From the NCBI RefSeq assembly GCF_003253565.1, contig NZ_QKUF01000002.1, forward strand, positions 124,001 to 188,000: a stretch of 64,000 nucleotides of DNA, in the 5' to 3' direction. The notes beneath the pieces are model-generated. The model did not search any database. It saw only the letters and a program-made list of their open reading frames with translations, and had not been told where the DNA came from. Position numbers and translations under genes: made by a program. Source of the stretch: Thermosporothrix hazakensis. GTDB lineage: Bacteria; Chloroflexota; Ktedonobacteria; Ktedonobacterales; Ktedonobacteraceae. This document shows positions 5,425 through 9,549 of this stretch, in pieces. Positions within the stretch are counted from its first letter, which is position 1; each line of letters begins with the position of its first letter.

Positions 5425-5802
5425 ATGACATCTACCGGTAAAAAGGTACTGATCGTTGACGATGACCCCGATATCACGCTTGCACTTGCAGCAATGCTGG
5501 AAGATGAGGGGTATGATGTCACAACCATCGACAGAGGTGAATATCTGGAGCAGCTTCCAGAACAGAATATGCCCGATGTCATTCTGCTGGACATGCTGCT
5601 TTCGGGCGTGGATGGTCGCGAGATTGCCAGACGCCTGAAACAGCAACCTGCCACGCGTCATATTCCCATCTTGATGCTCTCAGCGCATCCCAATGCGGCT
5701 CAAGAGGCGGAAAAGGCCGGAGCAGATGACTTTCTGGCCAAGCCCTTTGAGCTTGATGAGCTGCTCAACAAAGTCGCGCTACACCTGCATTCATCCGCCT
5801 GA
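5425..5802 (+). CDS. Single-domain response regulator
   Basis: The 125 residues form one receiver domain and nothing else. The acidic pocket (D12, D13, D14), the phosphoacceptor D56 (VILLDMLLSG), S86 and K106 (LAKPF) are all in place. There is no output domain, so it probably acts by protein contact or in a phosphorelay, like CheY or Spo0F. It has a strong AAAGGAG-type site upstream and follows the kinase gene by 39 nt in the same direction, which supports a cognate pair. A hybrid-type regulator elsewhere in the genome may be the final acceptor. Confidence 0.93.
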   Translation: MTSTGKKVLIVDDDPDITLALAAMLEDEGYDVTTIDRGEYLEQLPEQNMPDVILLDMLLSGVDGREIARRLKQQPATRHIPILMLSAHPNAAQEAEKAGADDFLAKPFELDELLNKVALHLHSSA

Positions 5803-5867
5803 ATATGCTCTTCTATACTCTTTCTTCTCGCTATGCAAACAGAAACGCTTTATGGCGCTCTCATCCG

Positions 5868-9155: not shown

Positions 9156-9241
9156 ACTATACTCTCCTTCACAAGAGGATAGGGTAATACAAACACAAAA
9201 AGAGTCAAAGAGAAAAACGGGTGGAGAAAAAAAAGCAGGAG

Positions 9242-9340
9242 TTAACAACAACACATACAGCAGGAGAAGAAACAGGGGACGAAGAGGCGGCCTACAACCG
9301 TAACAGGGAACTCAGATCGCTCGGTTCTGTATCGATACAT
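9242..9340 (-). CDS. Putative Cys-rich leader peptide (32 residues)
   Basis: A short frame begins 39 nt after the predicted transcription start and ends 86 nt before the next gene. It encodes MYRYRTERSEFP... and finishes CFFSCCMCCC before TAA, so six of the last ten residues are Cys. Its start is preceded by a purine-rich stretch (AAAGAGAGAGAAGAA) that could serve as a weak ribosome site. Such terminal Cys runs are known from mycobacterial upstream ORFs that attenuate downstream genes when Cys-tRNA is scarce. The downstream region is pyrimidine-rich, with a T9 tract and CTCC motifs able to pair with the next gene's Shine-Dalgarno sequence. Function as an attenuator is an inference. Confidence 0.5.
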   Translation of the reverse strand: MYRYRTERSEFPVTVVGRLFVPCFFSCCMCCC

Positions 9341-9377
9341 TTCTTCTCTCTCTTTACAATACAATAACGATACTTCC

Positions 9378-9414
9378 TGAGAATCATTATATGGATGAGC
9401 GCAAACAATGTCAA
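9378..9414 (-). promoter_or_regulatory. Perfect consensus sigma-A promoter with Fur-like box
   Basis: Reading the minus strand, TTGACA (9414-9409), a 17-nt spacer and TATAAT (9391-9386) match the consensus at all twelve positions. TGAGAATCATTATAT (9378-9392) overlaps the -10 element and matches the 15-bp Fur/Zur-type TGATAATNATTATCA at about 11 of its 14 defined positions. The start is predicted near 9379, leaving a leader of about 224 nt before the first large gene. Confidence 0.65.
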
Positions 9415-9423
9415 CCACGGAGC

Positions 9424-9455
9424 AGAAAAATGAGAGGCCAGTTTTCTGGCCCCTC
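9424..9455 (-). terminator. Terminator of the beta-glucoside operon
   Basis: On the minus strand a GGCCAG/CTGGCC stem with flanking GAG/CTC (one mismatch) and a four-base loop is followed by ATTTTTC. It lies about 95 nt after the beta-glucosidase stop codon. Confidence 0.7.
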
Positions 9456-9549
9456 ACCAGTACCCCATGTCGTGTACCACACGAGAAGCACCCTGGGGAT
9501 ACTCTCACGCTGACAGTCGAGAAGTGAGTAAATCTCAGAGGAGTTGCAA

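Follow-up and report, generated by a model that had tools for sequence, protein, structure and literature searches.

Cysteine-responsive upstream open reading frames (uORFs) have been described in mycobacteria (Canestrari et al. 2020, as relayed in PMC9094748 and PMC13236596). In Actinobacteria, leader peptides with Cys runs and without terminators precede cys operons, and a Rho-dependent step has been proposed for mycobacteria (Seliverstov et al. 2005, PMC1262725). RAPP-like (RQH) arrest peptides are found mostly upstream of sec/yidC genes (PMC10987492, PMC12992588). CruR and CutF are copper-responsive uORFs (DUF2946; PMC9426467, PMC9973294), with a Rho-dependent step reported for CruR.

Here we describe a Cys-rich uORF from Thermosporothrix hazakensis, a soil-dwelling member of the Ktedonobacteraceae (Chloroflexota), located in a 64,000-nt stretch of DNA that we call the window. 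As far as mycobacterial polycysteine uORFs are portrayed in the two relaying accounts, the window uORF is like them a short upstream ORF with terminal Cys codons before an operon, here a putatively sulfur-linked one, and with an inferred cysteine response. Unlike them, it belongs to Chloroflexota, is led by a Shine–Dalgarno sequence and begins about 39 nt past the transcription start instead of being leaderless, and precedes two genes that we call c0 and c1, not cys genes; moreover, non-Cys residues are conserved here and some lineages have no Cys run. The likeness to mycobacterial uORFs drawn in a preliminary description of this DNA thus holds for the terminal run of Cys codons (CFFSCCMCCC before the stop) ahead of an operon, and fails for the leaderless start, which is absent. 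Links of the downstream genes to sulfur metabolism are provided by relatives, through partner genes and a shared operator, and not by the window.

The actinobacterial leaders of PMC1262725 share with this one the Cys runs near the stop, the lack of a conserved terminator and the poly-pyrimidine spacer, but they stand before cys/cbs operons in Mycobacterium, P. acnes and B. longum and have no operon in common with it. The sequence HAPG in three relatives fits the core of the RAPP-like peptides, as does the combination of a long variable N terminus with a conserved C terminus; by contrast, the window peptide has no arrest core, RAPP occurs in none of the uORF peptides, and a stall here is putative. 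As with CruR and CutF, a Cys motif in a leader peptide would control a downstream operon, and a long gap is also found in CruR, but we obtained no DUF2946 match (Pfam and NCBIfam, E ≤ 1) and saw no copper genes. Nor did the uORFs match any other known small-protein family in these two collections at that threshold. By sequence, the leader peptides appear to be a new family of the Cys-leader kind already known, which would work like the mycobacterial polycysteine uORFs. Most likely, the uORF senses the supply of cysteine or sulfur and switches the operon accordingly.

A Cys-rich leader ORF precedes the c0–c1 operon

All features of the leader lie on the minus strand of the window, in the order beta-glucosidase gene, hairpin, promoter, uORF, 86-nt gap, c0 and c1. 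The terminator-like hairpin of the beta-glucosidase gene (positions 9429–9458; a stem of 13 pairs with a 4-nt loop and a T-rich tail) lies upstream of the promoter, and the leader is therefore a separate transcription unit. The sigma-70-type promoter TTGACA-N17-TATAAT (9386–9414) matches the consensus at 12 of 12 positions, and the uORF ATG lies 45 nt 3′ of the −10 element, about 39–40 nt from the predicted transcription start, in agreement with the perfect promoter and 39-nt distance reported earlier. Behind a Shine–Dalgarno-like GAGAGAG (9346–9352), at a place where most relatives' uORFs carry GGAG or GAGG, the uORF runs from 9340 to 9242; translation confirmed a 32-codon frame that reads MYRYRTERSEFPVTVVGRLFVPCFFSCCMCCC before the stop and has positional homologues in relatives. 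Six of its last ten codons encode Cys, and this C-terminal cluster (CFFSCCMCCC, 9245–9274), which is echoed by Cys enrichment across the family, is the presumed stalling or sensing segment. The gap (T 0.49, C 0.23, G 0.15) contains a pyrimidine-rich, weakly structured spacer (9171–9241), which may serve as a Rho loading region, and the Shine–Dalgarno sequence GAAGGAGAG of c0 (9162–9170). A T9 tract had been reported after the uORF; the longest T run is T8. With its strong promoter, leader with terminal Cys codons and long gap free of a terminator, the anatomy is of the leader-peptide attenuator type.

The density of Cys codons, noted early on as striking, proved exceptional. Among 2,407 intergenic ATG-started short ORFs drawn from 1.12 of the 7.28 Mb of the T. 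hazakensis genome, only the window uORF carried at least four Cys among the ten codons before its stop; in 300 dinucleotide shuffles of the window leader, a count of six was never attained. In four Dictyobacter genomes, the DNA pattern for MCCPHC occurred once per genome, exclusively before the c0–c1 operon.

The leader layout is shared across genera

The layout of near-consensus promoter, Shine–Dalgarno-led uORF, gap and operon recurred in Dictyobacter, Ktedonobacter, Tengunoibacter and uncultured relatives. Of 15 leaders scanned, 14 (including those of 13 of 14 relatives) had a promoter with 10–12 of 12 consensus matches at the corresponding position; the distance from its −10 end to the uORF ATG was 45–90 nt, and the gap from uORF to operon spanned 81–302 nt across genera. 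All uORFs comprised at least 32 codons. Conservation of the Cys codons in relatives, a check set beforehand, was borne out: 9 of 14 leaders of orthologous operons ended in a Cys cluster (at least three Cys in the last ten uORF codons), compared with 1.1 expected from shuffles. Before the stop codon, the uORFs read MSMSMCCPHC[RC] or close variants in Dictyobacter and CCSSMRRLCCCPR in Ktedonobacter and Ktedonospora, with TYCICPCCR, CSSTHAPGRSHCMCHC and SYMCC as further endings. In three relatives the Cys run was absent and an FCSS(T/S)HAP motif stood instead, namely in Ktedonosporobacter (PLFCSSTHAP), the S106 metagenome-assembled genome (MAG; PFFCSSTHAP) and the second G005 locus (PLFCSSSHAP). 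No Cys-type uORF was found at the c0 loci L022, L025 (where the operon opens with a sulfite-dehydrogenase-like gene) and L036, or at the Thermogemmatispora copies.

We also considered whether poly-Cys uORFs might be a general cysteine-regulon device in Ktedonobacteraceae. In an intergenic scan of control loci, Cys-rich uORFs were scattered at the family's cysKM loci (5 of 30, none sharing a sequence) and absent from its PAPS-reductase-like and SsuA loci, and this idea was set aside for want of a consistent pattern; these negatives are only indicative, as the scan missed the uORF of the window, where the c0 frame stays open upstream of its true start, and several other known uORFs.

Selection acts on the C-terminal residues

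Cys makes up 21% and Met 12% of the 15 C-terminal residues of the family's peptides, compared with 2% and 1% of the remainder. A comparison of K. formicarum with K. racemifer gave 7 synonymous and 1 nonsynonymous changes in the 17 C-terminal codons, and 0 synonymous and 15 nonsynonymous changes in the N-terminal part (Fisher P = 3e-5). Similarly, when MAG97 was compared with Ktedonosporobacter, the PLFCSSTHAP core showed 8 synonymous and no nonsynonymous changes, leaving this motif identical between two genera, whereas the 20 codons before it showed 1 and 18, respectively (P = 4e-6). Conserved residues other than Cys are also found elsewhere, for example, in MSMCCPHC and CCSSMRRLCCCPR. Judged by these substitution patterns, the uORF C termini are under purifying selection at the amino-acid level and the N-terminal two thirds are unconstrained. 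Because changes in the C termini are almost only synonymous, the uORFs are very probably translated, and their C termini very probably matter as peptides. A pure counter of Cys-tRNA would not need selection on non-Cys residues.

The operon encodes an ABM-like protein and an AioX-like binding protein

The first operon gene, c0 (P0001; 8463–9155, minus strand), overlaps the second, c1 (P0002; 7670–8482, minus strand). c0 is specific to Ktedonobacteraceae: of 29 genomes of the family, 20 encode a homologue (among them Ktedonobacter, Ktedonospora, Dictyobacter, Tengunoibacter, Ktedonosporobacter and Thermogemmatispora), and a search of 32 other genomes from the phylum returned none. Its AlphaFold2 model (pLDDT 79.6), for which Foldseek returned ABM-like proteins such as SnoaB (E = 6e-4), predicts a tandem dimeric alpha/beta barrel resembling ABM monooxygenase-type proteins. 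A Pfam match of P0001 to DUF2105 (E = 0.007; score 16.5 bits, cut-off 32) was dismissed as chance.

The c1 product has a PF12974 binding-protein fold (Pfam, 5.9e-41), and its closest solved structures in the PDB are the arsenic-oxyanion sensors ArrX and AioX. PMC5908839 names seven pocket residues of AioX; six of them, among which is the AioX-specific Cys106, correspond to c1 residues that are invariant in 13 relatives (C67, Y101, S131, S133, H161 and D179). Inspection by eye of the N termini of c1 in relatives revealed no evident signal peptide, and c1 is probably a cytosolic binding protein. Its AioX-like pocket is a lead on a candidate ligand, which may be arsenite, sulfite or another oxyanion. 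The leader offers a regulatory clue for an otherwise uncharacterised operon.

Sulfur links of the operon in relatives

Among the operon partners of c0 and c1 in relatives are genes for a SorA-like sulfite dehydrogenase, for a homocysteine S-methyltransferase-like protein accompanied by a DAO oxidase, for an LLM oxidoreductase and for an ICMT/MddA-like methyltransferase; these enzyme names are approximate, with all matches below the NCBIfam equivalog cut-offs. The palindrome GTAAC-N4-GTTAC was present at 10 exact sites in 8 of 22 c0 loci, compared with 0.23 expected, and lay about 5 nt 3′ of the −10 element in Dictyobacter and Tengunoibacter. The longer form TGTAACN4GTTACA also preceded an SsuA operon close to a LysR gene, TauE/SafE genes, APS kinase, flavin reductase, the operon of sulfite dehydrogenase, c0 and c1, and several MgtE-like genes. 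Palindrome sites at promoters (locus:position) were L055:5495, L058:5499, L061:5480, L062:5476, L039:7657, L060:5349 and 5580, L049:4763, L022:6885 and 7001, and L237:758 and 896, in addition to position 1501 of L251, L252, L257 and L264. The window itself contains no GTAAC-N4-GTTAC; its genome has no exact TGTAACN4GTTACA and no match to the PAPS-reductase family.

Since the palindrome also precedes sulfur-assimilation genes, the c0–c1 operon appears tied, through this site and its partner genes, to sulfur assimilation in relatives; the window itself is without these links. The palindrome is a candidate sulfur-regulon operator of Ktedonobacteraceae, located beside a LysR gene in some loci, and the leader thereby serves as a pointer to it. 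Separately, TGTAACN4GTTACA occurred near a PRC-barrel/MgtE-like transporter gene in five genomes (L254, L255, L259, L260 and L261).

The output step lacks a terminator

Folding of the 86-nt gap (MFE −10.5) gave no terminator-like hairpin in the window, and among relatives there were weak ones in four and no conserved terminator, leading us to reject an intrinsic terminator or classical attenuator. It had also been proposed that pyrimidine tracts mask the next Shine–Dalgarno sequence. When we folded 16 leaders with ribosome-blocked positions on the Cys codons, the mean unpaired probability of the Shine–Dalgarno sequence was 0.38 in the free state and 0.35–0.39 in the stalled state, and predicted accessibility was unchanged in the window too, so this proposal was abandoned. 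Known riboswitches or RNA families are likewise set aside: Rfam matched nothing in the leaders, and its matches elsewhere in the loci were a tRNA and a group II intron. Because there is neither a terminator nor a predicted unmasking of the Shine–Dalgarno sequence, the output step probably depends on Rho or on coupling to translation. By analogy with the proposal for mycobacteria (PMC1262725) and with CruR, a Rho-dependent step would be most compatible.

Two local structures were seen in relatives. In Ktedonobacter and Ktedonospora (L056 and L063–L065), a hairpin of the form GTCATGC..GCATGAC or ATCATGC..GCATGAT, with compensatory changes, lies about 30–60 nt before c0. In K. robiniae and SOSP1-85, a weak terminator-like hairpin adjoins the Shine–Dalgarno sequence.

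Cys-tRNA supply and other candidate inputs

Our best reading of the sequence data is a sulfur- or cysteine-responsive leader peptide that would act through ribosome stalling. In its simplest form, to which we give about an even chance, this is the leader peptide of a sulfur-linked c0–c1 operon with Cys-tRNA supply as its input. The strong promoter would yield a leader RNA with a translated uORF; when charged Cys-tRNA is short, the ribosome would pause at the Cys codons beside the stop and expression of c0–c1 would proceed, and when cysteine is plentiful, the ribosome would finish and leave, and expression would be reduced. We infer all three elements of this scheme, namely Cys-tRNA as the signal, stalling as the on state and the output step. 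The Cys-codon statistics, the 9 of 14 leaders ending in a Cys cluster, the shared layout, the almost purely synonymous C-terminal changes, the sulfur links in relatives and the actinobacterial and mycobacterial precedents argue for Cys-tRNA; the three FCSS(T/S)HAP relatives without a Cys run, the conservation of non-Cys residues, the lack of a general cysteine-regulon pattern and the lack of a conserved terminator or Shine–Dalgarno-masking structure argue against it. The original proposal of a cysteine-responsive leader is therefore upheld by its Cys clusters and by the sulfur links of relatives, but Cys-tRNA supply is not settled as the signal, because non-Cys residues are conserved and three lineages manage without the run.

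For the same reason, and because HAPG fits the (R/Q/H)-(A/G/D)-(P/G/S)-(P/G) arrest consensus of PMC10987492, the main rival is a nascent-peptide sensor, which we regard as possible, if doubtful. Here the C-terminal Cys, Met, His and HAP core would stall the ribosome through the tunnel, the stall being modulated by a sulfur metabolite, a thiol-reactive oxyanion or a soft metal, and the Cys codons would count as residues, not as tRNA demand. Purifying selection that extends to the non-Cys residues of PLFCSSTHAP, a uORF length sufficient in every case to fill the exit tunnel, the AioX-like pocket of c1 with its Cys, and the precedents of CruR and CutF, in which copper is sensed through Cys motifs, are in keeping with such a sensor. 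However, the HAP[GP] core is missing from the window, Ktedonobacter and most Dictyobacter peptides, arrest is putative, no uORF matches a known family, and neither the operon nor the neighbours examined yielded a metal gene; a copper sensor was rejected as such, no copper gene being seen, and survives only within this rival. A more specific proposal, which we consider unlikely, is that the nascent chain (PLFCSSTHAP and/or the Cys/Met/His-rich tail), not tRNA supply, would sense a sulfur-derived or thiol-reactive ligand and stall the ribosome; Cys-cluster and HAP-type cores would have replaced one another in evolution ahead of a single operon, with an arsenite-binding-like pocket in the second product of that operon. 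It is improbable that the conserved C-terminal stretch serves chiefly as an RNA element (a pyrimidine-rich anti-Shine–Dalgarno or Rho site), with the peptide incidental and translation merely clearing the RNA: the last 60 nt of the uORFs are 63–75% pyrimidine, nine codons (MRRLCCCPR) are identical in DNA between K. formicarum and K. racemifer, and the Ktedonobacter hairpin shows compensatory changes, but amino acids are kept despite third-position changes, and neither the folding averages nor Rfam point to such an element in the leaders. The CC, CxC and CxxC motifs with Met and His do resemble soft-metal ligands, as a small functional Cys-rich protein made in trans (for example, a metal-binding one) might have them instead of a cis regulator; with the N-terminal two thirds unconstrained, a C-terminal motif that differs by genus, no family matches and a conserved place just before one operon, we consider this very unlikely. 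Hardly credible, and already largely refuted, is a chance ORF in low-complexity GT/CT-rich DNA, as TGTTGTTGT, a simple sequence, might suggest, given the uniqueness of the frame in 1.12 Mb, the shuffles and the positional homologues in several genera.

Should Cys-tRNA control by this leader hold true, cysteine-type leader-peptide control, recorded for Actinobacteria, would extend to another phylum. Leaders with a Cys run, with a HAP motif or with both form a natural series that can separate tRNA-supply sensing from nascent-peptide sensing. In the Tengunoibacter leader (L060, about 5580–5860), the same frame continues past the stop after MCC and reaches a second stop via LLLFCSHAPKS, placing Cys-type and HAP-type ends in tandem in a single frame.
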